33,697 bases of DNA from Bacteroidales bacterium. Its GTDB lineage: Bacteria; Bacteroidota; Bacteroidia; Bacteroidales; Cfx3-03. The stretch lies in contig JAHEYR010000014.1 in the NCBI GenBank assembly GCA_023251485.1, forward strand, positions 1 through 33,697. The letters run 5' to 3'. Every line of letters starts with the position of its first letter. The first letter of the stretch is position 1. Positions 6,578 to 23,147 of this stretch are shown piece by piece. Position numbers and translations under genes: made by a program. A model generated the notes under the pieces. That model saw nothing but the letters and a program-made list of their open reading frames with translations, did not search any database and was not told where the DNA came from.

Positions 6578-8200
6578 TTAGAATCCTCTTGCGAATAAAG
6601 CCCAAAGTGTTTCACTGATTTCGTTCCATTTATACATGGCACTATAGGCAAAATGGTTGGTGTAGGTAGTGAGGAATTCTTTGTATTTCAACTCTTTCAC
6701 TCCCATCTCTTTGTCCTTATACAATTCGAGGGCTCGTTTTTGAATCATTGGAAGTTCTTCGAAAGCTTTGTTCTCAAATTCAGTAACACCTTCTTCTATA
6801 TATTTACGACCGATGCCCCATTTTACGGTAGCCAACTTATTCGCTTTTCTAAACCACCAGCCGGCAGCGTCTTCTCTAAAGCGATGTTGCATGCAGATAT
6901 TAAAGCTTGAAGGTAACGTAAGGTTGCCGGCAAAGATTGGGAAGCGGGGACTCTCTCCGGGGTTATCGAAAGAAAACCATGCAACACCGCCAATTTCATC
7001 AGGTAACCAATCGCGCAATTGAATGATGTGCGAGTATGAACATTGAGGAACAGCAATTGTACGTTGGCGTTCAGCTGATCCGGGCTTGAGTTCGTTGAAG
7101 AGGTTTCGGGTATCGGGAGATAAAAATGGATTAGCGACCGGGCTCATGATTTTTTCGTCAACCACTTCGCCTTTATCATTCTTTGTCTTTTGTGTAACCA
7201 TTAAATTTTTGGTTACATCATAAGGAGACCCTTCATAAGTGGTGCGATAGAATTTCATCACATCGCGTACCGATACTTTGCTTTCAGGTTTAACGGAGAA
7301 AGGAAGTTCTTCTGCGTCAAGTTTAAGTTGGAGAGAAGGGGCTAGACTAGATAGAACAAAGAACTCGCGGATGCCAAATGGTTTGCCACCGCTATATGCT
7401 TTCCAGAATTTGAAAGGATCTTTGCCATCCCACCACCCCATCTTTTGGGCGAGCGTAAATACATTTTCTGATGCCATGAAATGGTCTGTGTCTTTTAGAT
7501 CTAATATGCCTATACGTGGAATATTGGCAGAAATACCAACATGATCATCCGGAATTCGTTGAGCTGCCCAGACTGAACCAATCTCATCGGGGCCACCTCC
7601 AAATATCTCTAGCTGCCAAACTTCATGCTTATCAGCAATTGTAATACATTCGCCCCAATCGGCATATCCATATTGTTTTACCAGTTTCCCAATCAAGCTA
7701 ATGGCATCTCGTGCATTTGTACAACGTTGCAGCACTATCTTTTCAAGCTCTTCAATTAAGAAAAGACCTCTTGTGTTGACCAACTCCTTTTTTCCGGTTA
7801 TGGTTGATTCTCCTATCCCTAATTGCTTTTCATTGAGACAAGGATAGGCTGTGTTGAGGTAAGCATAGGTTTCGTCAACATCAGGTATCTCACCTTTATT
7901 GATCATGGTTGTAGAGTCGAAGATACTTTCAGTATGTAAAGTGCCCCAGTAGATATTCATTTTACTATCGGGCTTATTCTTTTTATGTGCGACAATATTT
8001 AGCCATGTTCGATAGTTTGAATCGCATGAATGACTGGTGATTACAGATCCATCGGTTGAAGCTTTACGGCCTACCATGATACTGGTGCAACTTTCGGCTA
8101 TTCCATCTTCGCCTAGTTGAAGCTGTTGAGCATTCGCAATTAAGGGAAAAAAGCTACAAAGGATAGTTATAAAATAGATATTCAAGAATTTTGAGTTCAT
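6578..8200 (-). CDS. Secreted C69 family dipeptidase (540 aa)
   Basis: A peptidase family C69 (PepD-like, Ntn-hydrolase) dipeptidase. Signal peptide at residues 1-24 (ending ANAQ), then a short propeptide up to the expected N-terminal nucleophile C38 in ESCTSIMVGRKAS; autocleavage before this Cys would activate the enzyme. The segments DGSVITSHSCDSN, RGLFLIEELEKIVL and IADKHEVWQLEIFGGGPD are conserved family blocks. It would cleave dipeptides with broad specificity in the periplasm or outside. It is the last gene of the degradative locus, but a terminator follows the upstream arabinofuranosidase gene and a TATATTTG box lies before this start, so it is likely its own transcription unit. Family call firm; link to the locus is by position. 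Confidence 0.93.
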   Translation of the reverse strand: MNSKFLNIYFITILCSFFPLIANAQQLQLGEDGIAESCTSIMVGRKASTDGSVITSHSCDSNYRTWLNIVAHKKNKPDSKMNIYWGTLHTESIFDSTTMINKGEIPDVDETYAYLNTAYPCLNEKQLGIGESTITGKKELVNTRGLFLIEELEKIVLQRCTNARDAISLIGKLVKQYGYADWGECITIADKHEVWQLEIFGGGPDEIGSVWAAQRIPDDHVGISANIPRIGILDLKDTDHFMASENVFTLAQKMGWWDGKDPFKFWKAYSGGKPFGIREFFVLSSLAPSLQLKLDAEELPFSVKPESKVSVRDVMKFYRTTYEGSPYDVTKNLMVTQKTKNDKGEVVDEKIMSPVANPFLSPDTRNLFNELKPGSAERQRTIAVPQCSYSHIIQLRDWLPDEIGGVAWFSFDNPGESPRFPIFAGNLTLPSSFNICMQHRFREDAAGWWFRKANKLATVKWGIGRKYIEEGVTEFENKAFEELPMIQKRALELYKDKEMGVKELKYKEFLTTYTNHFAYSAMYKWNEISETLWALFARGF

Positions 8201-8236
8201 ATTTTGGGTGAGTGTGTAAGGGGTTTAAATTTTTTT

Positions 8237-8244
8237 CAAATATA
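8237..8244 (-). promoter_or_regulatory. -7 promoter element for the C69 dipeptidase
   Basis: TATATTTG on the minus strand matches TAnnTTTG and lies about 37 bp before the ATG, just past the T tract of the upstream terminator. The -33 region is weak (TCTG). Confidence 0.45.
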
Positions 8245-8250
8245 TATGAA

Positions 8251-8293
8251 AAATTATAAAAAACAGAAGCGAGTTCGTTTAAAACTCGCTTCT
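8251..8293 (-). terminator. Rho-independent terminator after the arabinofuranosidase gene
   Basis: AGAAGCGAGTT (8265-8275) and AACTCGCTTCT (8283-8293) form a perfect 11-bp stem with a 7-nt loop. In the minus direction it is followed by a T-rich run (8263 down to 8251). It lies 33 bp past the stop of the glycosidase gene. Confidence 0.85.
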
Positions 8294-8326
8294 TAATTAA
8301 TACAACAACAAAACAGAAGAAAAATA

Positions 8327-10693
8327 CTAATCTATTTTTGTTTTCATTATTCGACAACCAAATATCCTACCGGCAGTCTTCTTATAATTTGCCTCAATTC
8401 TGATTGTCACTTTTGCCTTGTTTTGGGTCATCTCAGATGGGATAGGGTAGGAGAAGTCATAAAATTTGCCAGCTTTACCACCAGCCCATTCAACAGTTGT
8501 AAGCTTAACACCATCGATCATGATATCGAATTTCCGGTCTTTATCATCGCCAATATATGTCAATAACAGGGTGTTATTTTTATCAGGTTGTGTCTTAATT
8601 TCAAAAGAAAAGAAATTACCTGGTCTGGCTTCACGACCGGTTCTACCTAATGCTTCATCAACATAAGATTGCGCACTGGATTGTAGATTATGATCACGTT
8701 CAGGTTGCATCTCACCAATTCTGAAGTTATCAATTGTGTTTTCTTCAATCTCCTTTTGGCGTTTTTTATCAGCTTCATATTCAGCCTGACGAGAAGTCCA
8801 TTCTGCAGAGGTGAAGAAATCGAAATATACACTGTAGTGTTGATCATAAGTGCTATAGAACGGTTTCAACAAAGGATCAAAAGGTCTCCCTACTCCGGTC
8901 ATCTTAAATGTTAATGGCTCATTTTCTACCGGCTTAATCCAATTACTGATATTCCGATCGTCAGTTAGTAAAACAGGAGTTCCTACTAAAGGATCCGGGG
9001 TCTCTTTTCCAAGTTGTCCGGCTAAAACGATAGGACCATACAAGAAGGCGACCCTGTTTACATTGTCTGGAATACTCTCAGTATGAAGTGTCATTGGAAG
9101 TGTGATCTCTACTTTATCATTCGATTTCCATTTACGATTGATCACCAGATATCCATCTTCGTTTAGTGATGGAGATTCTACCTCTCCATTCACTTTAACA
9201 ACTACTCCATTGCTTGCCCATTTAGGATTCCTAAGATAGAGCGCGAACTGCTTTGGTGTTTTTAGAGTGAATGTTAAACTCGATTGATTGTTTTCAGGGA
9301 ACTTGGTTTCCTGTTTGACCGTGATCCCTTTCTCTTTCCAATTTAATATGGACGGAATAAACAGATTTACATATAAGCCACCATCTTTAGCCTGATAATA
9401 AATACTCTCTACATATTTGCTGTGATTCTCCATCCCGGTTCCCACACAGCAGGTGAATGTGTTGAATTGATCACTAAACTGCTTCTCTGTTCCCATGCGG
9501 AGTGGAACAAAATAGCACATCATTCCATCTGTTGGATTCTGAGAGGAAAGGATGTGGTTATAGAGTGCTCTTTCATAATAATCTGCTAAATCCTGACTTG
9601 GTTGCCAGCAAAACAGATGCATGGTGAGCTTCAACATATTATAGGTGTTACAAGTTTCGCAGGTGTTATCGCTCAATCTGTCGTTTAACTTATCTTCTTC
9701 TCCACAATATTCGTAACTACTATTCCCTCCTATGACATAAGAGTGGTGATGAACCATTGTTTTCCAGAAGAATGAGGCAATGGTTTTGTCAGAAGGCGTA
9801 TTGGTTAGTTCATAACTTCTGGCCGAGCCGATAGCTTTGGGCACGTTTGTGTTTGAATGTTTGCCGGGCATTGGATCAATCTCTTTGGCCAATTGTCCCA
9901 TCACAAACTCGTCATTAAATTTACGTGAGAGATCAAGATATTTTTTATTACCGGTGATGGCATAGATATTCACCAGCACATCATTCATGCCTCCATACTC
10001 ACAGTTCAACATTTTAAGACGTTGCTCTTCTGTAAGGTTTTTAACAATGTTATTCGTCCAGTCTGCCATTTTTACGACCACCTGGAGTGCTTTCTGATTA
10101 TCGCAGTACAGGTAGGCATCGACCAACCCAGCCATTACTTTATGAACGGTATACCAGGGTGACCAACCTCCATTTAAATCGAAACCACCTGATCTGATGA
10201 TGCCTCTCGATACGCGGTTAAAGAGTGTGTCTTCATTCGGAATAGCTCCGACATAACCTGTTTTACGCGCATCCTGACATCGTGCAAGTTCATCAACGAT
10301 ATAGTCTGATCGTTTTTTGAATTCAGGATTACCAGATGTTATCGCAAACATTGAAATTGCTGAAAGATAGTGTCCAAGTGTATGTCCAGAGAGTCCATCG
10401 CTTTCCCATCCTCCATAGACATCACCTTTTGTTGGTAGACCGGCATTTTTGTAGAATCGGTGTAATAACCTGTTCGGATCAAGTAACAAAAGATATGCAG
10501 CATCTTTATCCATTGCATTTTTAAAGATACTTCCGTCCAATAATTTTACGTCACGGATGTTGAATGCCGTTGCTTTTAAGTCAATAACCGGAGCAACTTT
10601 GAATTTTGAGTCTTTCTTTTCAGGAGTATAAGATTGTGCCTGAATACATAGTGAAAAGATTGTGAAGGCAGTAAATAATAATATTTTCTTCAT
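8327..10693 (-). CDS. GH127/GH146-type beta-L-arabinofuranosidase (788 aa)
   Basis: A secreted DUF1680-clan glycosidase (signal peptide 1-20, ending QAQ). The (alpha/alpha)6 catalytic domain spans about 40-440, followed by beta domains. The zinc/thiolate site of the clan is present: E346 and C348 in CETCNTYN, and the pair C415-C416 in FTCCVGTG, one of which is the Cys nucleophile in characterised members. The acid/base is probably one of the Glu residues in SYEYCGEED (327-334), an unusual version of that loop. Length near 790 and the YVIGGN and NTYNMLKL segments favour GH146 (BT0349-like) over the shorter GH127 HypBA1. It would release terminal beta-L-Araf from pectic side chains or hydroxyproline-linked arabinosides. 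It lies 78 bp after the metalloprotease gene on the same strand, likely one transcript, and ends at a terminator. Confidence 0.9.
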   Translation of the reverse strand: MKKILLFTAFTIFSLCIQAQSYTPEKKDSKFKVAPVIDLKATAFNIRDVKLLDGSIFKNAMDKDAAYLLLLDPNRLLHRFYKNAGLPTKGDVYGGWESDGLSGHTLGHYLSAISMFAITSGNPEFKKRSDYIVDELARCQDARKTGYVGAIPNEDTLFNRVSRGIIRSGGFDLNGGWSPWYTVHKVMAGLVDAYLYCDNQKALQVVVKMADWTNNIVKNLTEEQRLKMLNCEYGGMNDVLVNIYAITGNKKYLDLSRKFNDEFVMGQLAKEIDPMPGKHSNTNVPKAIGSARSYELTNTPSDKTIASFFWKTMVHHHSYVIGGNSSYEYCGEEDKLNDRLSDNTCETCNTYNMLKLTMHLFCWQPSQDLADYYERALYNHILSSQNPTDGMMCYFVPLRMGTEKQFSDQFNTFTCCVGTGMENHSKYVESIYYQAKDGGLYVNLFIPSILNWKEKGITVKQETKFPENNQSSLTFTLKTPKQFALYLRNPKWASNGVVVKVNGEVESPSLNEDGYLVINRKWKSNDKVEITLPMTLHTESIPDNVNRVAFLYGPIVLAGQLGKETPDPLVGTPVLLTDDRNISNWIKPVENEPLTFKMTGVGRPFDPLLKPFYSTYDQHYSVYFDFFTSAEWTSRQAEYEADKKRQKEIEENTIDNFRIGEMQPERDHNLQSSAQSYVDEALGRTGREARPGNFFSFEIKTQPDKNNTLLLTYIGDDKDRKFDIMIDGVKLTTVEWAGGKAGKFYDFSYPIPSEMTQNKAKVTIRIEANYKKTAGRIFGCRIMKTKID

Positions 10694-10771
10694 TTAAGTA
10701 ATTATTTGTTTTACATCAAAGAGTTTGTCTGAGTTTAATTGTCTACCTGATTCAATAGCATAACAACAATT

Positions 10772-12835
10772 TTATTTGTCAGGTATTTGTCGTGTTTTTG
10801 ATTTTGCTTTTATTTCGAATGAAGATGAAACTGTATTTGAGGGATTACTTTCTGAACTGGCTGTAAGTGTCACTTTTGCAGAGGGGGAACAATTTTCATC
10901 ATTCGATAAATATACTGAGATTTTCTCAGTATCGCCTGACTTTACAGATGCCAGGCCATTCAAAAGTTGAGCTTTCCAACCTTTTCCTTCAACGCTTACT
11001 GACAAACGATAAATATCATTATAAAGAGAAGCTGTTGAGATCTGTTTGTGTGATATCGTGTCAGTCTTTGTGACTAAACCTGTATTGGAAAGTGTAAAAC
11101 TGAAATATTCACCTTGCGAATTCATCTTCTTAGCGGCAGGAGGAATAATAGCTGTTTTTTGTAGTTGCGATCCAATGTTATCAAGAGATCTGATACCTAC
11201 TTTATAAACAAGTATTCCATTTGCATTCTTTTGGACATCAATTACATAAAAGTGTAATCTGTTTGCGGTATCTTCCCATTCAAACTGACTGCCTGAATTA
11301 AGTCCGGCATGGAATAATGCATCGTTCAGTTGACGGTAGTCAGCAATAGTCCTCATTACAACTTTTCCGTCCGGTTTAATATAGTCGACCTTATTAATAT
11401 CTTCGGGATGGGCATCAATAACCCAGTTAAAACAGTTGAATTCATTGGGACCTCCATTGCTACTCTCTTTGTCTTTATTCTTTGCGAGAAGAACTCCATT
11501 ATCGGGACAAAATGAATCATAGCCGATACGCTGAACAACCTCAATTGAGTAAAAATCGAAGTTTGGAATACCTGCCGACAATGGATTAACAGCAGGATCA
11601 TCTACCGGCGTTCTGTCGTGTGGAGCTGCACCATCGAGTCTGATAATAACACCGGCAAATGTACCTTGAAGTGGTTCAATGGCTCTTGCGGTAATTGTTG
11701 CAACTACGGGACCTGATTTTGCCAGTTCCTCACGGCTGAGGGTCAGTACCTGTTTCTCTGGGAGAAATCCATTCAATATTCTATTCCTGAGCATCAAACC
11801 TGCCGGCATACCAGCTCCCATTGTTGCTGGTACCACCCATCTCATGTGGGGACCGCCCGGACCGTTGAAAGAACCTCGATCCATCATATCCCATGGACCA
11901 GAACCAGCTCTTCTATAGGGTTTGATATATGGATTATTATTATTATCGCCAATATCGAATGCAAAATGACCAAGCTCATGGGTTATCGTTCCAGAGTTTT
12001 CCCCCTGTCTGATTGAGGAGATTCCCCACTGCATCTGTCCTGCTTTCCATGAGGTCCAGGGAACATAGCGTGTAGGGCTCCATCTCGGTTTTGAAGGATC
12101 AGGATTTCCCCATTCAGCAGGGATATCATCTTTTGATAGGAATTTCATCTCTCCGAATTCAAGCCATACTCCTGTCTCATCGTAACCTGCATATAAACGC
12201 AGGATCGCATCATATTTTTTGCTAATATCTCCTTCTGCTGCTTTCCAGAGCGCATCAACATCAGGTTCCATGTCGCTGTTTGCCTTTGATCCATCAGGAG
12301 TCGCATTATTCTGTCCCCATTCATTCAGTCCATATTCCCAAAGCTTTTTAGGCATTCGGTAGGGGCCGTATGCATCAAGTTGTGTGATACCGAATTTACC
12401 ACGCGACTGTTCCATCCAATAACCATTAATTGTATGTCCATGGTTGATTGCAGAAGGATGGAGCCAAAAATCTGAATAAAACTTAGGCACATCTTCTCTT
12501 TTAACTGGGCTTATTTGAGGATTTCCAAAAAGATCAGATTTCTTTGGCTGCGTGATTACAAAAGGCTGATCAGAAAAATCAACTGCAACCAAAGCCATTT
12601 TGAATTTACGTTCCGGAATAAGTGATGAGCTGGCCCAATCCCTTCCTGGAATAGGACTGTAATCTTCCCATGTCATGTCGCTTTGGTCATGAACTAATTG
12701 TGGATCAATTGGCTTTGGCGATACGGTCTGTTCTTTTCCTGTTTTTCTATCTGTGAGACCTGATCTTTGGCTTTTCTGTGACCAAGAGTTTATCGTAAAT
12801 GATAGCAGAAGACAAACAGCAAGAAACTTTTTCAT
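10772..12835 (-). CDS. Secreted M6-like zinc metalloprotease (687 aa)
   Basis: A signal peptide (1-20, ending SWSQ) precedes a basic linker and a metalloprotease domain. The zinc motif HELGH is at 286-290 in GTITHELGHFAFDIGDN, and a Met-turn-like WDMMDRGSFNGPGG follows at about 315-328, in the arrangement of M6 (immune inhibitor A-like) peptidases. The N-terminal block KMALVAVDFSDQPF with a later SRGKFGI also fits M6 proteins. The C-terminal 200 residues are beta-rich, perhaps binding or sorting domains. Known relatives degrade extracellular proteins; the substrate here is unknown. It has its own good promoter and begins a probable two-gene unit with the arabinofuranosidase. Pairing a large secreted protease with a SusCD system suggests a proteinaceous target. 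Confidence 0.85.
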   Translation of the reverse strand: MKKFLAVCLLLSFTINSWSQKSQRSGLTDRKTGKEQTVSPKPIDPQLVHDQSDMTWEDYSPIPGRDWASSSLIPERKFKMALVAVDFSDQPFVITQPKKSDLFGNPQISPVKREDVPKFYSDFWLHPSAINHGHTINGYWMEQSRGKFGITQLDAYGPYRMPKKLWEYGLNEWGQNNATPDGSKANSDMEPDVDALWKAAEGDISKKYDAILRLYAGYDETGVWLEFGEMKFLSKDDIPAEWGNPDPSKPRWSPTRYVPWTSWKAGQMQWGISSIRQGENSGTITHELGHFAFDIGDNNNNPYIKPYRRAGSGPWDMMDRGSFNGPGGPHMRWVVPATMGAGMPAGLMLRNRILNGFLPEKQVLTLSREELAKSGPVVATITARAIEPLQGTFAGVIIRLDGAAPHDRTPVDDPAVNPLSAGIPNFDFYSIEVVQRIGYDSFCPDNGVLLAKNKDKESSNGGPNEFNCFNWVIDAHPEDINKVDYIKPDGKVVMRTIADYRQLNDALFHAGLNSGSQFEWEDTANRLHFYVIDVQKNANGILVYKVGIRSLDNIGSQLQKTAIIPPAAKKMNSQGEYFSFTLSNTGLVTKTDTISHKQISTASLYNDIYRLSVSVEGKGWKAQLLNGLASVKSGDTEKISVYLSNDENCSPSAKVTLTASSESNPSNTVSSSFEIKAKSKTRQIPDK

Positions 12836-12869
12836 TGTTAAAGATTTTGAGATAAAGATGTTTTTTTAG

Positions 12870-12899
12870 CAAAGCTAATTAGAAACTGCGTAAACCCAA
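12870..12899 (-). promoter_or_regulatory. Promoter of the metalloprotease-arabinofuranosidase unit
   Basis: On the minus strand TTG (12897-12899), a 19-bp spacer and TAGCTTTG (12870-12877) match the Bacteroidota -33/-7 promoter layout. It lies 34 bp before the ATG. The 18-bp tandem array begins at the base next to the -33 element. Confidence 0.65.
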
Positions 12900-12991
12900 C
12901 CGCGTTATTTCGAACGTAACCGTTATTCCAACCGAAGCCGTCATCCCAACCACAACCGTCATTCCAACCGAAGCAGTTATTCCAGCCGAAG
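12900..12991. repeat. 18-bp tandem repeat array
   Basis: Four 18-bp units start at 12920, 12938, 12956 and 12974 with consensus CCGTCATTCCAACCGAAG (1-4 changes each), preceded by a 20-bp degenerate unit at 12900. The next unit-like sequence at 12992 (CCGTCATTTCGACC) is the start of the inverted-repeat element, so the array and the hairpin share sequence. The minus strand encodes a GW-rich hexapeptide repeat, but no credible gene. Confidence 0.88.
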
Positions 12992-12992
12992 C

Positions 12993-13073
12993 CGTCATTT
13001 CGACCTTTTGGGAGAAATCTACTAATAGATATTCGCAAGAAGAAAAGATTTCTCCCAAGAGGTCAAAATGACG
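12993..13073. repeat. 28-nt inverted-repeat element, copy 1
   Basis: Left arm 12993-13020 and right arm 13046-13073 match at 26 of 28 positions as an inverted repeat around a 25-nt loop. The arm begins CGTCATTTCGACC and ends GGGAGAAATCT. A close copy lies at 23066-23147. REP- or MITE-like, with no coding content. Between SusD and the metalloprotease it could also end the SusCD transcript or protect its 3' end. Confidence 0.9.
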
Positions 13074-13088
13074 AGGTGGGGTTTATGA

Positions 13089-13116
13089 AGATTTCTCTCA
13101 AGTGGTCAAAATGACG
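13089..13116. repeat. Solitary third arm of the inverted-repeat element
   Basis: These 28 nt differ at two positions from the right arm of copy 1 (13046-13073), in direct orientation 43 bp away. Similarity continues into the flank (GGTGG). There is no matching left arm, so it is a partial duplication of the element's right half. Confidence 0.8.
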
Positions 13117-13136
13117 CGGTGGAACTTAATAGTTTC

Positions 13137-14723
13137 TTAGTATCCCGGATTTTGTTTTAAATTCGGGTTCTTATTCAACTCTTCCTGAGGTATTGGGAAA
13201 ATCTTCTTTGTCGCTCCATTTGGCTTATGATTTAGCCATGTTTTTGTTGAGAAGACTCCAAAGCGAATGAGATCCTGACGGCGATGAGCTTCTGCTGCAA
13301 ATTCCCAGCCTAATTCATCTAAGAATCTTCCGTATGTGATATCTGCACCACCTTCTACAGGGGAAATGACTCCATTCAAAGAATAGCCATAAACATAACT
13401 ACTGCCTTTTTGAAGATTTGTGCCAGTTACAGTTGCCTTTGAAGGATTTGTTTTAAAGTCTCTGTTTCTTACTGTCGTTACGATTGCTGCAGCATCATCG
13501 GCATGTCCTGTTCTGAGCAGACATTCAGCTTTCATCATTAATACTTCTGCATATCGGAAGATGGGGAAGTCGTTACTTAAGCTGCCTTTAGCACCTTGTT
13601 TAATTTCATATTTCCCAATACGATAACCATCATAACTATTATTTGGACCATAGATGCTTGCTACATAATTTGGAAAAGATATTACAACCGTTCCGTTATC
13701 CGGATTTAGCTGATCGCCCATTATCCAGGTATCTTTTAATCTACTGTCGTCTGGATCGTAGGTATTGATAAACTGGGGTACTGCACAACTACCTCCCCAA
13801 GGTTGAGCTTCCATCTTAAATACAATTCTCATTTTAGGATCAAGTGTCTTCATGTGGATACCAAATCCCTGGCCTTTTGTTTCATCATAAGGAACCGCAA
13901 AGATGAGTTCTCTTGATGTTTCATTAGCGGTTTTGAACGATTCCTTATAATTGGGTTCCAGAATGTATTTTCCGCTTGCAATAACCTCATCACATAATTT
14001 AGAGCAATCAGTCCACATACCAGTACCTGTATAAGTTATAGCGTTTAGATAGACTCTTGCCAAAAGTGTTTTAGCACCCCATTTGGTAAATCTTCCATAA
14101 GTTACCGTACTCACCTCTTCCGATAATAAAGGAATACTTTCGGTTAACTCTTTTACTACAAAGTTATAGATTTCGAGCTGTGTGCTTTGTTTCGGAACAT
14201 CTTTACTGGTATAATCGGTCACTAATGGCACATTTCCATGGTTGTCACATAAGAGGTAATAGTAGAAGGCTCTGACAGTTCTTAATTCAGCTATGAGTGC
14301 GTCCTTGCCTTTTGTCATAACAATTTGTCCTGACTGAATTTGATACATTACTCTGTTTGCTGTATTAATTCCGGTATAGCAATTGTTCCATAGATTCCAT
14401 GGTTGCCATTCCTGAGTTGTCCATTCATGTTTATGCATACGTTGATACGTGCCACCATCAACCCATCCATTTGGACGAGCTGGCGTTACAATTGCATCAG
14501 CTGCTTCTTCCTGCACATCAAAATAACCTTGCCAATCAGCCATCATGGGGCGCATTACAGAATATACCGGTCCTATTAAAGCAGGAATATCTGCTTCAGT
14601 GGGTACAAAATCTTTTTGTAATACTTCGCTATAGACTTTTTCATCCAGTTTGGTACAACCGTTTAATACTGCAATTGAAAGTGCAAGTAACAGTGTTATA
14701 TATGATTTATATGTTTTTTTCAT
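13137..14723 (-). CDS. SusD/RagB family substrate-binding lipoprotein (528 aa)
   Basis: Lipoprotein signal peptide with lipobox VLNGC (Cys23). The mature protein shows SusD/RagB features: an N-terminal TPR-rich scaffold with AELRTVRAFYYYLLCDNHGNVPLVTD (the conserved RAFYYY block), the FPIFRYAEVLMMKAECLLRTG helix, and the C-terminal HRRQDLIRFGVF followed by FPIPQEELNKNPNLKQNPGY. It sits on the cell surface as the lid of the SusC transporter and binds the oligomer to be imported. The gene begins 11 bp after SusC and is co-transcribed with it. SusD sequence does not reveal the ligand. Family call very firm. Confidence 0.97.
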   Translation of the reverse strand: MKKTYKSYITLLLALSIAVLNGCTKLDEKVYSEVLQKDFVPTEADIPALIGPVYSVMRPMMADWQGYFDVQEEAADAIVTPARPNGWVDGGTYQRMHKHEWTTQEWQPWNLWNNCYTGINTANRVMYQIQSGQIVMTKGKDALIAELRTVRAFYYYLLCDNHGNVPLVTDYTSKDVPKQSTQLEIYNFVVKELTESIPLLSEEVSTVTYGRFTKWGAKTLLARVYLNAITYTGTGMWTDCSKLCDEVIASGKYILEPNYKESFKTANETSRELIFAVPYDETKGQGFGIHMKTLDPKMRIVFKMEAQPWGGSCAVPQFINTYDPDDSRLKDTWIMGDQLNPDNGTVVISFPNYVASIYGPNNSYDGYRIGKYEIKQGAKGSLSNDFPIFRYAEVLMMKAECLLRTGHADDAAAIVTTVRNRDFKTNPSKATVTGTNLQKGSSYVYGYSLNGVISPVEGGADITYGRFLDELGWEFAAEAHRRQDLIRFGVFSTKTWLNHKPNGATKKIFPIPQEELNKNPNLKQNPGY

Positions 14724-14734
14724 GACTCTGTAAT

Positions 14735-17700
14735 TTAAAATGTAATATTTATACCTAGCGTGAACGTTCTGGTAGTTGGATATTTATCGCGCTCGTCATC
14801 TCCTGGATTTAATCCGGATCTGTTAACTTCAGGATCGATTCCTTTGTATCCGGTGATGGTTAAAAGGTTAAGAGCAGATGCATACACTTTGGCATTTTTA
14901 ATAAACTTTACATTTTTCAAATTAAAGGTATAACCCAAAGTTACATTGTCGATTTTTAAATAATCTCCATTTTCAATATAATAACTCACCAATGCAAGAT
15001 CGCTATTCAAAACGGCTTTTCCGTAAACCTTGTCGAAAGCAGTTTTCAGCATATTGTATTGTGTGACCTTTGGATTATCGTAATACATACGTTGAAAGTT
15101 TAAAATCTGGAATCCAAAAGCACCACGTAGATTGACGGTAAGGTCGAAGTTCTTATATTGGAAAGCGTTATTGAATCCAAGATAGTATTTGGGAAGTCCG
15201 TTTCCTAAGACCTGTTTATCATCGTCTGAGGCATCAACAATACTTTTAGGTTTTCCATCTTTTCCTTGAATGATCCAAATGCCATCAGCTGAAATATCAA
15301 TTGATTTGAAACCCCAGAAGTTGCCAATAGGACCACCAACTTTAACCCGATGGGTTGTTGTCTGAATGGGTTCGCCGGTATATCCTGTATCAAAAAAGTC
15401 GTTAGTCATTTTGAATTGATCGTTTGACAGAGATACCAGTTTATTTTTATTGGTTGAATAAGTAAAACTGGATGTCCAATTAAAGTCTTTTGATTTTAAT
15501 GGAATAAACTGAATATATGCTTCAATACCTTTGTTTTCCATAACCCCAACATTAGCTGTAGTAGTACTATAGAGATTTGGAGGTACCGGTACCGAGTAAT
15601 CATAAAGCATATCTACGGTCTTTCTTTGATAGACATCCATGTTCCCAGAAATACGCCCTTTCAAAAATGAGAAGTCAAGTCCTAAATTGAGCTCTTTCTT
15701 CTTTTCCCAACGTAAATCAGGATTTGCATTTCTTACAGGTGTTATACCCTGAATCCATTTTCCATTATTTAGGAACCGATCACCATAGTTTAAACTGATT
15801 TGCGACATATATGGGCTACTGGGTTCAGTTCCTGTAATACCGTAACCGGCTCTGATTTTTAAGTTCTCTACAAAATCGAGTGATTGCATAAATGGCTCTT
15901 TAGAAATTCTCCAACCTACAGATACGGCAGGAAAATTACCCCACTGGTAATTGGCGCCAAATTTTGTTGACCCTTCTCTTCTGATACTTGCCATTAACAG
16001 GTATTTATCGTCGAAGTTATAATTGAGACGCCCAAAGAATCCAATTAATTTGGATGAACTTTTGCTACTAGCCATTACAGCTTCGCCTCTGGACAACGCA
16101 TCACCGGTTGCCATGTTATTATAAGAGTAGAGATCCGTTGGGAAATCCCAGTTTTGCATCCAGAAACCTTCATTCGTTTGATCTTGATAACTGTACCCGC
16201 CTAATATAGATGCTCTATGTTTTCCAAAGCTTTTTGAATAATCAGTAGTGAATTCTAAAAGATTGTCTTTAGACGCGGCAGTGCCTCTTGAAGCATATCC
16301 ATTTTTGCCATATTTTGTATTGGAGACATTTTGTTTTGTCTGGTAATATCCACGTAAGATATCATCACTATTTTGTGATACCAATAACTTAATATTTAAT
16401 TCTTTGATTGGCGAAAAGATTGCACTTCCTGCAACACGCATCTCTTTTTCTTCATACAGACCATCTGTCTCCATTAATAATCCTACAGGATTATCGTACA
16501 TGTAGGTATCAGTTTCTTTCCATGTTCCGTCAGCGTTTTTTACAACATCTGTTGGGTTACGGATGATCGCTTGTCTGTATACACCTGTGTTAAAGCTATA
16601 GCCATCACCACCTGTCCAATATTTATCATCTCTAAATGATGAACTCAGGTTTAATTTCAGTTTGTTATCAAACATTGCATGATTTAGGTCTAACCTGCCA
16701 ATTAGTTGCTTATCGTCAGAACGTTTGAAAATGCCCTCCGAGCCTTTAAAGTTTATAGAAGCTGTATAGTTGGAAGTTGTATTTCCACCTTGTAAGGTTA
16801 GATTATGGTTTTGGCTGATGGGTGTACGTGTAATTTCTTTAAGCCAATCCGTTGAGCCCCCAAGATCTTCAAAACCTACTCCTTGTTTGATTAATCTTCT
16901 GTAATCAGCAGCATCAAGGAAGTTCATCTTTCTGGCAATCATTTGTGTACTTACATAACTGGAATATTCCATTGTAGGCTTCATTTCATTCGTAGCTTTC
17001 TTTGTCGTAATGAGGATTACGCCATTTGTTCCTCTTGTTCCATAGATTGCTGCTGCCGAACCATCTTTTAATACGTCTATTGATTCTATATCTTCCGGAG
17101 CTACAGTAGATAAACTTCCAGGTATACCATCAACTAAAATGAGAGGGGAGGAGGATGCCAGCAAAGTGCTGATACCACGCAACATGATCTGAGTCCCTTG
17201 TGTTGGGTCGCCAGATGAAGTAGAAACGGTTAATCCGGATACTTTCCCCTGAATTAATTGAGCAGCATCTTTAGCCGATCCTTTTAAAAATTTATCCGAC
17301 TTCACACTCGAGACAGAACTTGTTACATCTGATTTCCGTTGTGTTCCATAACCTACAACCACTACTTCATCAAGATTTCGTACATCCTCTTGCAGTGTGA
17401 TTTTGATAGTCTTCTGATTCCCAACGTAGATTTCCTGTGATGTATAGCCCATACATGAAACTTGAAGTACGGTTTGCGGGCTGGGGATATTTAGCGTGAA
17501 CTTGCCAGTGATGTCTGTGACTGCACCTTGTTTCGTTCCTTTGATTCTAACATATACCCCTGGAAGTGAATTACCTTTTGAATCATTAACAATACCCGAA
17601 ACACTAAGTACCTGTTGAAATTCAGCGAGTACTGTATTTTCATAATTGTCCATGCCCGGTACTGTAATCAAAACAATATGTTTATCGATTACTTTATAAG

Positions 17701-18025
17701 CTATATTGGTATTTTTAAAGACGTTTTCTAAGACATCCGATATTTTCATATTGGTTGCATCAACGTCGATCTTATTAAGAACATCTATTTGCTGGTTGTG
17801 ATAAAAGAAGCGATATTCTGATTGTTTTTCTATTTCTCTGAAAACATCTAAAAGAGTTGAACCCTTCAAATTAATATTCACTTTCGTACTTTGTGAATAG
17901 GTGCTTTTTGCTATTACCGATAGGCTACAGCATAACATCAAAATTGTAAATATTTTCATTATTCGAAGTGTTTGCGTAAGACATTTTATTTTATGGGTAT
18001 GTCTTAGAATTGTAGATAAATTCAT
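14735..18025 (-). CDS. SusC-type TonB-linked transporter with STN domain (1096 aa)
   Basis: Outer-membrane TonB-dependent importer. A long N-terminus (cleavage near residue 45) leads to an STN/secretin-like signalling domain (about 52-119), a carboxypeptidase-regulatory-like beta domain (about 142-213) with the SusC hallmark SLPGVYVRIKGT, the LDEVVVVGYGTQRK box, a plug (about 230-345) and a 22-strand barrel ending in TLGINITF. The STN domain is what contacts FecR anti-sigma factors, and a FecR/FecI pair lies just upstream, so the transporter is probably also the sensor of substrate. Paired with SusD. Substrate unknown, but the linked enzymes suggest an arabinosylated glycan or glycoprotein. 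Confidence 0.97.
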   Translation of the reverse strand: MNLSTILRHTHKIKCLTQTLRIMKIFTILMLCCSLSVIAKSTYSQSTKVNINLKGSTLLDVFREIEKQSEYRFFYHNQQIDVLNKIDVDATNMKISDVLENVFKNTNIAYKVIDKHIVLITVPGMDNYENTVLAEFQQVLSVSGIVNDSKGNSLPGVYVRIKGTKQGAVTDITGKFTLNIPSPQTVLQVSCMGYTSQEIYVGNQKTIKITLQEDVRNLDEVVVVGYGTQRKSDVTSSVSSVKSDKFLKGSAKDAAQLIQGKVSGLTVSTSSGDPTQGTQIMLRGISTLLASSSPLILVDGIPGSLSTVAPEDIESIDVLKDGSAAAIYGTRGTNGVILITTKKATNEMKPTMEYSSYVSTQMIARKMNFLDAADYRRLIKQGVGFEDLGGSTDWLKEITRTPISQNHNLTLQGGNTTSNYTASINFKGSEGIFKRSDDKQLIGRLDLNHAMFDNKLKLNLSSSFRDDKYWTGGDGYSFNTGVYRQAIIRNPTDVVKNADGTWKETDTYMYDNPVGLLMETDGLYEEKEMRVAGSAIFSPIKELNIKLLVSQNSDDILRGYYQTKQNVSNTKYGKNGYASRGTAASKDNLLEFTTDYSKSFGKHRASILGGYSYQDQTNEGFWMQNWDFPTDLYSYNNMATGDALSRGEAVMASSKSSSKLIGFFGRLNYNFDDKYLLMASIRREGSTKFGANYQWGNFPAVSVGWRISKEPFMQSLDFVENLKIRAGYGITGTEPSSPYMSQISLNYGDRFLNNGKWIQGITPVRNANPDLRWEKKKELNLGLDFSFLKGRISGNMDVYQRKTVDMLYDYSVPVPPNLYSTTTANVGVMENKGIEAYIQFIPLKSKDFNWTSSFTYSTNKNKLVSLSNDQFKMTNDFFDTGYTGEPIQTTTHRVKVGGPIGNFWGFKSIDISADGIWIIQGKDGKPKSIVDASDDDKQVLGNGLPKYYLGFNNAFQYKNFDLTVNLRGAFGFQILNFQRMYYDNPKVTQYNMLKTAFDKVYGKAVLNSDLALVSYYIENGDYLKIDNVTLGYTFNLKNVKFIKNAKVYASALNLLTITGYKGIDPEVNRSGLNPGDDERDKYPTTRTFTLGINITF

Positions 18026-18090
18026 AATTTTATCAATGTTTAGTTGAACAATAAAAGCGTTAATTTTTCAGATGCGTTTTGCTGAACATT

Positions 18091-18119
18091 AGAGCGGGGA
18101 AGTGGCGCTTTCCCGCTCT
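18091..18119. terminator. GC-rich hairpin between FecR and SusC
   Basis: AGAGCGGGGAA (18091-18101) pairs with TTTCCCGCTCT (18109-18119): an 11-bp stem with one G-T pair and a 7-nt loop. In the minus direction no T run follows, so it may be an incomplete terminator or attenuator that lowers read-through from the sigma-FecR unit into SusC. The T-rich side faces the plus direction. Confidence 0.55.
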
Positions 18120-18184
18120 TTCAGCTTTTAAAGAAATCCTGTTTTTCCTTCATAGGCAACATGTTTAATTTTAAAAGCAGTGAA

Positions 18185-19195
18185 TTAATAAATGTAAATT
18201 AGATTCTTTTGAATGGTATAATTCATGTGGGTGTTGATCTTGATGACTTTTAGAATCGTATCAATTGATTCGTAATCAAAGAAGGTCCCCGAGAAAGTAA
18301 GATGTTTTATTTTTTGATTGTGGAAGATGAAGGTCACCCGATGTGATCGTTCTAGTCTCTTTGCAATTTCTTCAAAAGTGAGATTTACAAAACGTGATTC
18401 ACCGAACCTCCATGCAGAGTATAATTCAGTGTCCACATTTTGAACTGCAATATTTTTCCGGTCGGATGAGAGTGTCGCTTTTTGTCCGGGTTTAATGATT
18501 GTATGTTCTTTTTGATTTCCAGCACCGACTGAAACGGATCCCTCTACCAGAACCGTGCTGATTTCATCCGAGTTTTCATATCCTGTTACGATGAAAGCTG
18601 TACCGAGTGCTTTTACAGTAAATCCTGAACTATTTACAATAAATGGATGTGCTGAATCCTTTTTGACTTGAAAATAAGCTTCTCCTTTTAGATCGACGCT
18701 TCTTATTTTGCCCTCTTTGTGATAACAAAATGAACTACATGAGTTGATCCAAACCTTTGTTCCATCGGGTAATATCGTTTTGGTTCGTTCACCTTTTCCG
18801 GTAATAATGATGATGCCGGGATCTTTTTCTGAATTATATTTAGTTTGGTGGTTGAAAAGAAGGAAAGAAAATAGCATGCCAACGAGAAGGATGGCGGCAT
18901 ATTTAAACAACGTAAGTGCAAGTTTAACGATGGGTGTTTTAGCCTGCTGAGTATTGTGAGACGATTCATTTATCCTTTCCAAAAGGAGTTTCCATTCTGT
19001 CGTTGAATTAGCTTCATTTAAACGTGTACTCCACAACCCGGCATCACAAATCTCTTTGAGCTTAAAGTATAGCGCTTCGTTTTCTTTATCTTTTTCTATC
19101 CACTCTAAAATTTCTTTCTTTTCCTCTTCAGTAGCATTTCTGCCTGATAGTTGCTTTGAAATTAAAGTAATGTAGTAGTCATCTTTTGAGTTCAT
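18185..19195 (-). CDS. FecR family anti-sigma factor (336 aa)
   Basis: Inner-membrane anti-sigma factor. The cytoplasmic N-terminus (1-95, with ATEEEKKEILEWIEKDKEN) binds the sigma factor; one membrane helix spans about 98-115; the periplasmic FecR domain (about 126-225) contains RTKTILPDGTKVWINSCSSF and VDLKGEAYFQVKKDSAHPFIV; the C-terminal DUF4974 domain (about 265-335) contains FVNLTFEEIAKRLERSH. DUF4974 is where the STN domain of the partner SusC is expected to dock. It follows the ECF sigma gene by 98 bp, which holds a perfect 9-bp inverted repeat. Together sigma, FecR and STN-SusC form a trans-envelope switch that induces the locus when substrate is bound. Confidence 0.95.
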   Translation of the reverse strand: MNSKDDYYITLISKQLSGRNATEEEKKEILEWIEKDKENEALYFKLKEICDAGLWSTRLNEANSTTEWKLLLERINESSHNTQQAKTPIVKLALTLFKYAAILLVGMLFSFLLFNHQTKYNSEKDPGIIIITGKGERTKTILPDGTKVWINSCSSFCYHKEGKIRSVDLKGEAYFQVKKDSAHPFIVNSSGFTVKALGTAFIVTGYENSDEISTVLVEGSVSVGAGNQKEHTIIKPGQKATLSSDRKNIAVQNVDTELYSAWRFGESRFVNLTFEEIAKRLERSHRVTFIFHNQKIKHLTFSGTFFDYESIDTILKVIKINTHMNYTIQKNLIYIY

Positions 19196-19213
19196 ATTAT
19201 TATTCCCTTTTGT

Positions 19214-19238
19214 AGTATGACACCTAAATTGTCATACT
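19214..19238. promoter_or_regulatory. Inverted repeat between sigma and FecR genes
   Basis: AGTATGACA (19214-19222) and TGTCATACT (19230-19238) form a perfect 9-bp dyad with a 7-nt loop. No T run follows, so it is not a clear terminator. It may be an mRNA hairpin that sets the sigma to FecR ratio; function unknown. Confidence 0.4.
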
Positions 19239-19293
19239 TACTTACATTGGAAATGAAAATTGTAAAGAAATAATTTGAAATTATAATGGAGGG

Positions 19294-19884
19294 TTAATGC
19301 GAAAGAAGAAACAGGAAAAGGGGAAGGTAATCTTTTAGGTGCTCTTTAAGTATTTTAAGCGCCCGATAGTTTTGGTGCTCAACTGTTCTTATTGATAAAT
19401 TCAATGTCTCTGCGATAGTTTTGTTGTCAATTCCTTCAATGCGACTCAGCAGGAATATTTTCTTACAACTTTCAGGCAATGAATCAATACTCTTTTTAAA
19501 AATCTCTTCAATATCCTTAAAATAGATACTTACATGGCTTTCCTGGAGTTCATCGAAATAACTTAACTCCATTTCTTTAAATCTTAATTCGATTGAATTT
19601 TGGTAGCGCAATCTTACTTTTTCATTTCTGAGATGATTAAGACATCTATTGTGAAGCATTTGAAAGAGATAAGCACTTAATGAAGTGTTAATTTGAAGGA
19701 GAAGTCTCTTCTCCCAAAAGCAAAAGAATACATCTTGAACAATATCTTTTGCTAATTCGATGTCGTCTACATACTTTCTGCAAAATGCATATAACTTCGG
19801 ACGGAGGTCTAAATAGATCGTCTCAAACGAGTCAATATCTCCCGCTCTGATTTTAGTGATTACATCTTGTTCAGAAATAGACAT
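19294..19884 (-). CDS. ECF RNA polymerase sigma factor, FecI type (196 aa)
   Basis: A Bacteroidota ECF sigma-70 factor. Region 2 is LRPKLYAFCRKYVDDIELAKDIVQDVFFCFWEK (about residues 27-59), and region 4 is SLPESCKKIFLLSRIEGIDNKTIAETLNLSIRTVEHQNYRALKILKEHL (about 136-185), a helix-turn-helix that binds the -35 region of target promoters. Directly upstream of the FecR anti-sigma gene and the STN-bearing SusC, it most likely turns on SusC-SusD and perhaps other units of the locus. A 7-bp hairpin AAGGGTA/TACCCTT lies in its leader (19919-19937). A terminator separates it from the GH3 gene upstream. Confidence 0.95.
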   Translation of the reverse strand: MSISEQDVITKIRAGDIDSFETIYLDLRPKLYAFCRKYVDDIELAKDIVQDVFFCFWEKRLLLQINTSLSAYLFQMLHNRCLNHLRNEKVRLRYQNSIELRFKEMELSYFDELQESHVSIYFKDIEEIFKKSIDSLPESCKKIFLLSRIEGIDNKTIAETLNLSIRTVEHQNYRALKILKEHLKDYLPLFLFLLSH

Positions 19885-19981
19885 AATACCTCTTTTTGTC
19901 CGTTACCTGTATGGTTATAAGGGTAAAAAATACCCTTTAAAATTTGTTGCCAAAGTAATCAAATTTTAAAGTAGTTTTAAG

Positions 19982-20055
19982 AAAAAATAAGAAAAAAAGC
20001 AATTTCATCAAATAACGAGGAGGCACGATGAACGTCCTTCGTTATTTGATGAAAT
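19982..20055 (-). terminator. Rho-independent terminator after the GH3 gene
   Basis: ATTTCATCAAATAACGA (20002-20018) and its exact reverse complement (20039-20055) form a 17-bp stem with a 20-nt loop. In the minus direction a long T-rich tract follows (19999 down to 19982). It isolates the GH3 gene from the sigma operon. Confidence 0.85.
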
Positions 20056-20068
20056 CAGTGAGTAAATA

Positions 20069-22651
20069 TTAGTTGATCAATTTAATAGCGTGTGTCAGCA
20101 GAATGTTTTCTGCGGAAGCTCCTATCATGAGTTTATATTCGCCCAGTTCAACTTTCCAGCATTTATTGGCTTCATCCCAGTGGCGTAATTGATCCACTGC
20201 GAATTTTAAATTGATTGTTTTTGATTCTCCTTTTTTCATGGCGACTCTCTTAAATGCCACCAATTGTTTGACCGGTTGCTTATATTCAGCTTTCTCCTGA
20301 TGAGCATAAAGTTGTACAACCTCGTCCCCATTGTATTTGCCACTATTTTTAATGGTGACCATTACTTCAACAGAATCCTTCGAAGAATAAGCCTCTTTCT
20401 TACTATAGAAATTGGTGTAATCAAATTTAGTATAGCTTAATCCAAAGCCGAACGGATAAAGCGGTTTCTTGTCAATGTATTGATAGGTTCTTCCCTTTGA
20501 AATTTCATAATCGTCAAAAGGCAGGAGGTCGTCAACTGATTTATAAAAGGTCAGCGGTAACCTGCCAGCAGGGTTATAATCTCCGAATAATACATCGGCT
20601 ACGGCTGTACCTCCTTGTTCTCCAGGATACCATGCATCTAAAATCGCAGGGATATTTGCATCGATCCAGTTGATTGCTAAAGGGCTTCCGGCAACCAGGA
20701 CGACGATTGTTTTAGGATTCACTTTGAAGAGTTCTTTGATTAAAGCCTCCTGATCGGCCGGAAGGTTTAGGTCTTTTTTATCCTGACCTTCTCTTTCAAT
20801 GCTTTTGTTGATTCCTAAAACAGCTATTACATAGTCAGATTCTTTAGCTGCTTTCTTCTCTTTTGCATAAATCTCTTCTTTAGCTTCTTCTGGTAGTGAC
20901 CATTTTAATTGAGCAATAGCATCACCGGCGCGATCATAATATTCCATCACAACTTTATATTCTTTGCCTGCTTGCATGAATAGTTTGACTTTATTGCTAA
21001 TGTTTGAACGGTCAACCCATTGATCAATCACACATTTATCATTGATATATAAACGTAAGCCATCATCAGAATTGGCTGAGATCGCATATTCTCCTGTGAT
21101 CTTAGGTGTTAACATACCCGTCCAACGAATCGATTTTGGACTTTTGGGAATAAATGGATCAGGTGGTTGATTTGCCGGATCAAAATTAACAATGGATTCG
21201 ACTCTGCTTTTAGCTTCTCCAGTCAAGTTCATTGTTGAAAAATATTCCGTTTTTAATCCCTTCGTCTTTGACTTTTCTAAGTGAAAGTAATTTGCCGGAA
21301 TTAACTCAGACCCCTCTTCGCGGTTTGTCCAGGGCACATAGTTAATCTTGATTTTCTTTCCGGCTTTGATTTTTATCCCTTCTAAAATACTGACCGGAGT
21401 ATTTAATGGTACCCCGCTATAATCCCCAAATTCACAAACACCCGCATTGATACCAACGATCGCGATTGACTTGATCGACTGTTTATTTAATGGGAGTATG
21501 TTTTGCTCATTCTTCAACAACACAATAGATTGCTTGGCGGTCTCAAGTGCCAGATCTTGATGCTCTTTGCACCCTACCATTGCTGGTGCGATTTTATTAT
21601 AGGGAACAGATTCAGGGTTGTCATAAACACCAAGTTTGAATCGGGCTCTTAATACTCTGATGGCGGCACTGTCTATCTGAGTTTCTGTGACCATTTTTTT
21701 ATTGTATGCATCTAATAAGAAAGTCGTGAAGGTATCTTCTCCACACTCCAGATCCAGCCCTGCATCTAATGCTAATTTAGCTGCTTCTGTTTTATTCCTC
21801 GCATATTTATGATTTGTCACCAATAACTCGGGCCCTCCACAATCAGAAACCACATAGCCGTTGAAGCCCCATTCAGTGCGGAGGATATCAGTCAATAAAA
21901 GTTTATTAGCTGTACATGGAATTCCATTTACTGCATTATAAGCACTCATAATCGATTCAGCCTTTCCTTCTTTGATGGCAACTTCGAAAGGTGCCAGATA
22001 ATATTCGCGCATGGAACGGTCACTCATGATGGCATTGCATTCAAAACGATTGTGTTCTTCGTTGTTTGCTGTATAATGTTTTGGTGTAGCAACAGTCTTT
22101 AAGTATTTTGGGTCATTACCTTGTAGGCCTTTGATAAAAGCAACCCCCATGCGGCCACTCAGGAATGGGTCTTCACCATAGGTCTCGGGTGTCCTTCCCC
22201 AGCGCGGATCGCGTGCCAGATTGATATCGGGTGACCAAAATGCAAGCAGGTCACTATAAAGATCTTTTTGATTCTCTCCTTGCTTCAGCTCATTCCAGCG
22301 GGCTCTTGCTTCAGTTGAGATGGTTGAAGAAACTGTGTAGATGAGATCCGTATTCCACGTTGCAGCAAAAGCAATAGCCTGTGGAAATACGGTAAACTTT
22401 CCAGGTCGAACAATGCCATGCAGGGCTTCATTTCCATGATAATATTTTGGGATGTCTAATCGGGGAAACCCTTTGAATGTTGCATGTAATAAAGATATTT
22501 TCTCTTCGACCGTAAGTCGGGAAACAAGATCTTTAGCCCTTTGATCAGATGATAGCTTTTCATCTCTGAAGGGTGGCGTTTTACTATTATCTTGTGCTTG
22601 TGCAACATTAAATAGTAAAAGCGTTATTATACAAAGTAAAGTTATACGCAT
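20069..22651 (-). CDS. Secreted GH3 glycosidase with PA14 insert (860 aa)
   Basis: Glycoside hydrolase family 3 enzyme with signal peptide (1-20). The N-terminal TIM barrel carries PDINLARDPRWGRTPETYGEDP, KHYTANNEE (substrate Lys191-His192) and the nucleophile D270 in GYVVSDCGG. The alpha/beta domain begins about residue 375 and is interrupted by a PA14 domain (about 466-587, WTGMLTPKITGEYAISANSDDG), a carbohydrate-binding insert seen in beta-glucosidase and xylosidase-type members. The segment SIEREGQDKKDLNLP (618-632) lies near the acid/base. A fibronectin-III-like C-terminal domain ends the protein. Specificity (beta-glucoside, xyloside, alpha-L-arabinofuranoside or galactoside) cannot be set by eye. 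It lies upstream of the sigma gene with its own terminator, so it may be regulated separately from SusCD. Confidence 0.95.
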   Translation of the reverse strand: MRITLLCIITLLLFNVAQAQDNSKTPPFRDEKLSSDQRAKDLVSRLTVEEKISLLHATFKGFPRLDIPKYYHGNEALHGIVRPGKFTVFPQAIAFAATWNTDLIYTVSSTISTEARARWNELKQGENQKDLYSDLLAFWSPDINLARDPRWGRTPETYGEDPFLSGRMGVAFIKGLQGNDPKYLKTVATPKHYTANNEEHNRFECNAIMSDRSMREYYLAPFEVAIKEGKAESIMSAYNAVNGIPCTANKLLLTDILRTEWGFNGYVVSDCGGPELLVTNHKYARNKTEAAKLALDAGLDLECGEDTFTTFLLDAYNKKMVTETQIDSAAIRVLRARFKLGVYDNPESVPYNKIAPAMVGCKEHQDLALETAKQSIVLLKNEQNILPLNKQSIKSIAIVGINAGVCEFGDYSGVPLNTPVSILEGIKIKAGKKIKINYVPWTNREEGSELIPANYFHLEKSKTKGLKTEYFSTMNLTGEAKSRVESIVNFDPANQPPDPFIPKSPKSIRWTGMLTPKITGEYAISANSDDGLRLYINDKCVIDQWVDRSNISNKVKLFMQAGKEYKVVMEYYDRAGDAIAQLKWSLPEEAKEEIYAKEKKAAKESDYVIAVLGINKSIEREGQDKKDLNLPADQEALIKELFKVNPKTIVVLVAGSPLAINWIDANIPAILDAWYPGEQGGTAVADVLFGDYNPAGRLPLTFYKSVDDLLPFDDYEISKGRTYQYIDKKPLYPFGFGLSYTKFDYTNFYSKKEAYSSKDSVEVMVTIKNSGKYNGDEVVQLYAHQEKAEYKQPVKQLVAFKRVAMKKGESKTINLKFAVDQLRHWDEANKCWKVELGEYKLMIGASAENILLTHAIKLIN

Positions 22652-23065: not shown

Positions 23066-23147
23066 CGTCATTTCGGCTGTTTGGGAGAAATCTCTTATTA
23101 ATTGCGGGTATTTATAAGCAGATTTCTCCCAAACGGTCGAAATGACG
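23066..23147. repeat. 28-nt inverted-repeat element, copy 2
   Basis: Left arm 23066-23093 and right arm 23120-23147 match at 26 of 28 positions as an inverted repeat around a 26-nt loop. The arms are nearly the same as those of the copy at 12993-13073 (CGTCATTTCG start, TTGGGAGAAATCT end), while the loops differ. It lies between the Rrf2 gene and the zinc-ribbon gene. Confidence 0.9.

Follow-up and report, generated by a model that had tools for sequence, protein, structure and literature searches.

The window analysed here is a 33,697-nucleotide stretch of DNA from a Bacteroidales bacterium (contig JAHEYR010000014.1), and the locus under study, at positions 6578-22651, combines a SusC/SusD transporter pair with a gene for a protein resembling M6 metallopeptidases and a gene for a predicted beta-L-arabinofuranosidase of glycoside hydrolase (GH) family 146. 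The reading that we favour, with a little more belief than doubt, is that of a ligand-sensing SusCD system for the uptake of beta-L-arabinofuranosylated glycopeptides from the cell-wall glycoproteins of plants or green algae, those of arabinogalactan-protein (AGP) type being likelier sources than those of extensin type. It is carried by gene content, by catalytic motifs, by a pairing of M6-like and GH146 genes that recurs in other phyla, and by orthologous SusC and SusD genes found next to an L-arabinose operon in a cultured bacterium.

The key part of the locus is the gene for the M6-like protein (687 aa; 10772..12835, minus strand). This protein scored 84.9 bits against TIGR03296 (E 8.9e-24), below the curated cut-off of 110.8 for the M6 family, and a Pfam scan gave no match, PF05547 (the Pfam M6 model) included; the latter matches weakly in 5 of 47 members of the subfamily. 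A HELGH motif occupies residues 286-290, and H286, E287, H290 and D297 are invariant across the 47 homologues, which come from several phyla. The exact pattern HEXXHXXGXXD is found in one of them only (L097), most members carrying one extra residue. In the AlphaFold model (mean pLDDT 78.9), confidence is moderate around the zinc-motif site. Judged by its sequence, then, the protein is a member of a divergent M6-like subfamily lying below the family cut-off, and 'metallopeptidase' is a well-motivated prediction rather than a demonstrated membership. Identity within the subfamily is 50-65% between phyla, which would be unusually high for a generic protease. The orthologues L044, L054 and L100 look like lipoproteins. 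The same genome also encodes, on contig C290 (L021), a second M6-domain protein, this one above the cut-off.

The subfamily is rare yet spread over many phyla. It was found in 3 of 148 sampled relatives of the source genome, itself excluded (G001, 87% identity; G034, 63%; G137, 62%), and in none of 394 other genomes sampled from the class. A scan of the collection brought 238 relatives, of which the best 80 (50-87% identity) were used for neighbourhood work; by their record titles, these 80 belong to Bacteroidota, Aminicenantes, Acidobacteriota, Gemmatimonadota, Planctomycetota, Verrucomicrobiota, Actinomycetota, Myxococcota and others. Five Bacteroidales (L036, L039, L040, L042 and L045) carry the gene in a conserved block, between those of a protein of about 518 aa and a 332-aa protein (epimerase-family in some), most of them also with a 264-273-aa protein, a second context without glycosidases. 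In two bins, of Aminicenantes (L048:7891-16167) and Acidobacteria (L066:9660-17948), the gene is followed by that of a giant protein, about 2,760 aa long. Around close relatives of the window SusD in G027, G079 and G085, the stretches read contained no M6-like gene.

The glycosidase gene (788 aa; 8327..10693, minus strand) encodes the Pfam domains GH127_cat (E 3.5e-125), middle, DUF4986 and DUF6805. The closest solved structure is 5opj (498 bits, nearly full length), with 6yqh also matching, both of which we take to be BT0349, a GH146 enzyme. The catalytic Glu region, the ETC zinc motif, the CC pair and the C-terminal QPE-DH motif all align with 5opj. The CETC and CC sites that the first-pass annotation had pointed out were recovered at residues 345-348 and 415-416, so that a Cys3-Glu zinc site and a cysteine nucleophile can be recognized in the alignment. 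In BtGH146 the nucleophile is a cysteine of the CC pair, C416 (PMC10728902). In a quick tree, with long branches elsewhere, the window enzyme grouped with BtGH146 (SH-aLRT 99), apart from GH127-type genes, among them the one linked to the L-arabinose operon of the same genome. The enzyme is thus of BT0349 (GH146) type, and is predicted to be a beta-L-arabinofuranosidase. This assignment bears on the substrate. A characterized GH146 enzyme, Bll3HypBA1, sits in an AGP gene cluster and cuts beta1,3-linked arabinofuranose (Araf) of AGP and arabinan, not beta1,2-Araf (PMC10850190). Because of this specificity, the likely target shifts from the hydroxyproline-linked arabinose (Ara-Hyp) of extensin to AGP-type glycans or arabinan: of the extensin or AGP target initially suggested, the extensin part is weakened, and the AGP part is kept as the likelier.

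The question of whether the M6-GH146 pairing exceeds chance was addressed with 80 genes immediately adjoining M6 homologues, picked by position and Pfam-scanned after near-duplicate neighbourhoods, short open reading frames (ORFs), three very long ORFs and Actinobacteria (poor ORF calling) had been left out. GH127_cat with DUF6805 was the commonest family (6 of 80, the window pair being additional): five cases belong to an Aminicenantes/Zixibacteria lineage, directly downstream and on the same strand, and one to Bacteroidota (L100). The expected number of adjacent loci, calculated from how many PF07944 genes each genome has, is about 0.19. Likewise, a GH127-fold gene lies in the flank of 11 of the 80 loci, against 1.36 expected. 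On the M6 tree the label changes six times; since the Aminicenantes cases form one lineage, we counted conservatively 5-6 events, for which P is about 0.013 with the flank count and 0.001 with three adjacent events. The M6-associated enzymes that were placed in a tree group with BT0349 within the GH146 clade, a specificity that is partly built in, since most of them came to light through their similarity to that of the window. At the level of whole genomes, PF07944 genes are present in 73 of 79 M6-positive genomes versus 44 of 145 M6-negative relatives of the order, a comparison that mixes phyla. The pairing is above chance, real but not overwhelming, and the protease does not look incidental.

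The most informative of the loci compared is an orthologous one in a cultured bacterium, Perlabentimonas gracilis M08_MB (L044, L102 and L103). Its first half reads GH127, GH51-type (Alpha-L-AF_C), S9, DUF6144, DUF5695, M6 (65% identity), GH97, SusC; it continues with GH146 bearing a LamG domain, SusC (61% over 787 aa), SusD (58%), a sodium:solute symporter, a NUDIX-type gene (232 aa), L-arabinose isomerase (AraA), and ends with an AraD-like gene, an FGGY kinase, an aldose 1-epimerase (mutarotase) and DUF885; the NUDIX-type and AraD-like genes were named by their looks, without a family scan. The SusC and SusD are orthologous to those of the window, and the cluster, with the GH127-type enzyme at its far end, stands immediately upstream of the L-arabinose catabolic operon. 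The S9 protein has prolyl tripeptidyl and dipeptidyl peptidases as its closest solved relatives (2d5l and others). A second locus (L100) has the order S9 (69-70%), GH146, DUF5695, GH146, M6, and in G034 an S9, GH43, GH127 series occupies another contig, its own M6 gene adjoining an M14 carboxypeptidase gene. In the congener G001, the S9 orthologue (60%) is found some 9 kb past an L-arabinose operon of the order SSF, NUDIX-type, AraA, AraD-like, GH51, kinase, GH127, epimerase, GH51; the same genes are split over two contigs in the source genome. L-arabinose genes and two peptidase families thus occur in the same clusters, which matches what a diet of arabinosylated proteins predicts. The first-pass annotation had tied the protease to the glycosidase, and this link is borne out by adjacency in other phyla and by the P. 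gracilis cluster, where orthologous SusCD genes accompany M6, GH146/GH127 and prolyl-peptidase genes and an L-arabinose operon.

Two further observations concern these clusters. In both genomes of the window genus that have the locus, the S9 gene follows a transketolase gene near the L-arabinose operon (L126:7097-9358 and L124:8157-10421). DUF5695 (about 900 aa; L044:7145-9877 and L100:4640-7447) immediately precedes the M6-like gene in one of these Bacteroidota clusters and is one gene away from it in the other; it is possibly another enzyme of the M6-like/GH146 system, and we found no useful literature on it.

All eight genes named at first pass were confirmed by the ORF list and by Pfam/NCBIfam, on the minus strand. 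As transcribed, they are a GH3 gene with a PA14 insert (20069..22651), an ECF sigma factor of Bacteroidetes type (19294..19884; TIGR02985, 164 bits, above cut-off), a FecR anti-sigma factor (18185..19195; Pfam FecR and FecR_C), a SusC with an N-terminal STN signalling domain followed by CarbopepD and Plug (14735..18025; TIGR04056, 756 bits; STN E 2.9e-10), a SusD (13137..14723; Pfam SusD_RagB, lipobox LNGC by eye), the M6-like and GH146 genes, and a C69 (Ntn) dipeptidase (6578..8200; Pfam E 1.1e-55, candidate nucleophile Cys38). The successive gaps are 184, 98, 159, 11, 301, 78 and 126 bp. The GH3 protein scored 761 bits against NF041776, below the cut-off of 1250, and is predicted to be beta-xylosidase-like. 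With susC and susD 11 bp apart and a linked degradative enzyme, GH146, downstream, the locus has the make-up of a polysaccharide utilization locus (PUL), and with an STN domain on the transporter and linked FecR and ECF sigma genes it has that of a trans-envelope signalling system.

The eight genes are probably not a single transcription unit, because hairpins followed by T-runs lie after GH3 (about 20003..20054, minus strand, coordinates taken from the sequence; RNA fold -27.4 kcal/mol, z -7.6) and between GH146 and C69 (8265..8293, minus strand; terminator-like, 12-bp stem, fold z -5.2). Another hairpin, in the FecR/SusC gap, has no T-run. From these positions, the core unit is likely SusC-SusD-M6-GH146 with the ECF/FecR regulator, GH3 and C69 being neighbours and GH3 likely a unit of its own; GH3 stays in place in G001. 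Because SusD and the M6-like gene are separated by 301 bp, M6-GH146 may be read through from SusD or have a promoter of their own, both of which fit the gap. It had been proposed that the C69 dipeptidase finishes the peptides, a role in the core unit that the observations do not support: a terminator-like hairpin intervenes, two divergent genes (a GFO/IDH oxidoreductase and a xylose-isomerase-like gene) are inserted between GH146 and C69 in G001, and no C69 was seen in the P. gracilis stretch read. The hairpin and the insertion led us to set C69 aside, and the other M6-C69 neighbour found (L032) is not clearly above chance.

The 301-bp gap contains a long palindrome, TTGGGAGAAATCT-N-AGATTTCTCCCAA, at 13008-13058 (fold z -9.1; no strand assigned). 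Elsewhere in the window it recurs at 23081-23132; this dispersed repeat has six copies in its own genome and none in the two congeners tested, and has the look of a small mobile palindrome specific to its lineage. An apparent extra operon gene at the same place in G001 was rejected, as it is an insertion sequence (IS) transposase. At the left border, an AAA_14/DUF4143 ATPase gene (4846-6117) adjoins the locus. This border is variable, since a congener carries a different gene (913 aa) at the position of the ATPase.

How might such a system work? In the reading favoured here, SusCD would pass glycopeptides or oligosaccharides over the outer membrane, and the ligand-occupied STN-SusC would signal to FecR, thereby freeing the ECF sigma factor and raising expression of the locus. 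The GH146 enzyme would then take off terminal beta-L-Araf and the M6-like metallopeptidase would cut the peptide backbone, both in the periplasm. The signal peptides, assigned by eye, look type I on C69, GH146, the M6-like protein and GH3, and lipoprotein on SusD, because of which 'secreted' most likely means periplasmic for these enzymes. Breakdown would be finished by products encoded elsewhere in the genome: GH127 and GH51-type enzymes, a prolyl-peptidase-family protein and the L-arabinose operon. This scheme is a prediction from the genes wherever it speaks of proteolysis, of the substrate, of a periplasmic site of action, of regulation and of the order of events.

Several observations weigh against this reading. 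Foldseek searches with the M6-like model matched beta-sandwich regions and brought no solved peptidase for the catalytic domain, so that structural proof of an M6 fold was dropped as an argument; by sequence there was no solved relative up to E 1. The locus showed no endo-acting enzyme of the kinds known for AGP or extensin. Most M6 homologues have no adjoining GH146, including the closest Bacteroidales ones except the congener. PF07944 genes are present in 73 of 79 M6-positive genomes versus 44 of 145 M6-negative relatives of the order, a comparison that mixes phyla. The expectation that the gene set would be conserved together was borne out in part: of two congeners examined, G001 retains all eight genes in order (84-95% identity), while G002 lacks both the M6-like gene and SusD. 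Conservation reaches further for the M6-GH146 and SusCD-M6-GH146 cores.

Finally, the GH146 enzyme is compatible with arabinan too, and the chief rival is still the one originally named, a pectic arabinan/rhamnogalacturonan I (RG-I) system in which the enzyme trims beta1,3-Araf off imported arabino-oligosaccharides while the M6-like protein is a nearby maturation or housekeeping protease. We consider it rather unlikely. The window enzyme shares its architecture with BT0349. The latter bears a covering domain at its C-terminus, is believed to use oligosaccharides and belongs to an RG-I PUL (PMC10850190); GH51-type enzymes and an AraA operon exist in the genome, and the scarcity of adjoining GH146 genes around M6 homologues agrees with an unrelated protease. 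However, adjacency recurs over lineages, a prolyl-peptidase-family gene occurs in the same clusters and the window has no endo-arabinanase. Improbable in our view is that the M6-like subfamily serves as a secreted peptidase of general use, with GH146 neighbours marking no more than lineages that degrade plant detritus, and with a window locus that came together by chance and was inherited by two congeners: M6 neighbours are indeed mostly housekeeping or unrelated genes, others being generic peptidases (M28, M1, M14), but the adjacency exceeds expectation, involves GH146-type enzymes, and the sequence is more conserved than such a role would suggest. Another specificity of the GH127 clan, for 3,6-anhydro-galactose of carrageenan or aceric acid of rhamnogalacturonan II, is known in GH127 members (PMC5698469) and was rejected as very improbable here, because the enzyme groups with BT0349 in GH146, the P. 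gracilis cluster adjoins an L-arabinose operon and protein family scans revealed no sulfatase in the window.

The glycopeptide reading has a wider, more tentative extension, which we regard as possible though doubtful: a cross-phylum metallopeptidase subfamily, not described before, may be dedicated to beta-L-arabinosylated (hydroxyproline-rich) proteins and inherited or mobilized with GH146, glycan and backbone being eaten as one system, in Bacteroidota via a SusCD glycopeptide importer. Extensins and AGPs are major glycoproteins of plants and green algae that bear arabinose; the bacterial systems known to use them handle the sugars, and little is known of the proteases that open the hydroxyproline-rich backbone. 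With its genomic ties to GH146 and, in a cultured bacterium, to an L-arabinose operon, the protease-like subfamily provides a concrete candidate for this step, together with a test strain. Searches of the open literature brought up no M6-type protease described as a partner of GH146, an absence that is weak evidence.

Of the known systems, the BT0349 PUL of Bacteroides thetaiotaomicron (RG-I/arabinan) resembles the locus in the family and domain order of its glycosidase, in the zinc-site, cysteine-nucleophile and QPE-DH motifs, which align, and in its SusCD context. To our knowledge, no M6-like protease has been reported in it. Unlike the window, that PUL has multiple GHs (PMC10850190). The AGP cluster of Bifidobacterium longum (Bll3HypBA1) also ties GH146 to arabinosylated protein glycans, and the P. 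gracilis GH146 likewise has LamG, but there the enzymes are surface-anchored, there is neither a described protease nor SusCD, and the glycan alone is used (PMC10850190). The HypAA/HypBA1/HypBA2 system of the same species, acting on Ara-Hyp of extensin, similarly removes beta-L-Araf from hydroxyproline-rich glycoproteins (HRGPs), but with GH127 and GH121 enzymes, an ABC importer of arabinobiose and no peptidase (PMC7263609). With immune inhibitor A and other M6 metallopeptidases (TIGR03296, PF05547), the M6-like protein shares HEXXH, the downstream Asp and profile similarity; it differs in its score below cut-off, its mostly one-residue longer motif and Foldseek matches confined to the beta-sandwich. 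The idea is shared by the proposal that Latescibacteria degrade HRGPs (extensin or AGP of algae) with GH127 and peptidases including M06 (PMC4454575). In that proposal the genes form a genome-wide list without linkage in one locus, and the peptidases are described as non-specific (PMC4454575). For the locus studied here, the link to an HRGP system, as read from the genes alone, consists in genomic linkage to an L-arabinose operon and to a prolyl-peptidase-family gene.

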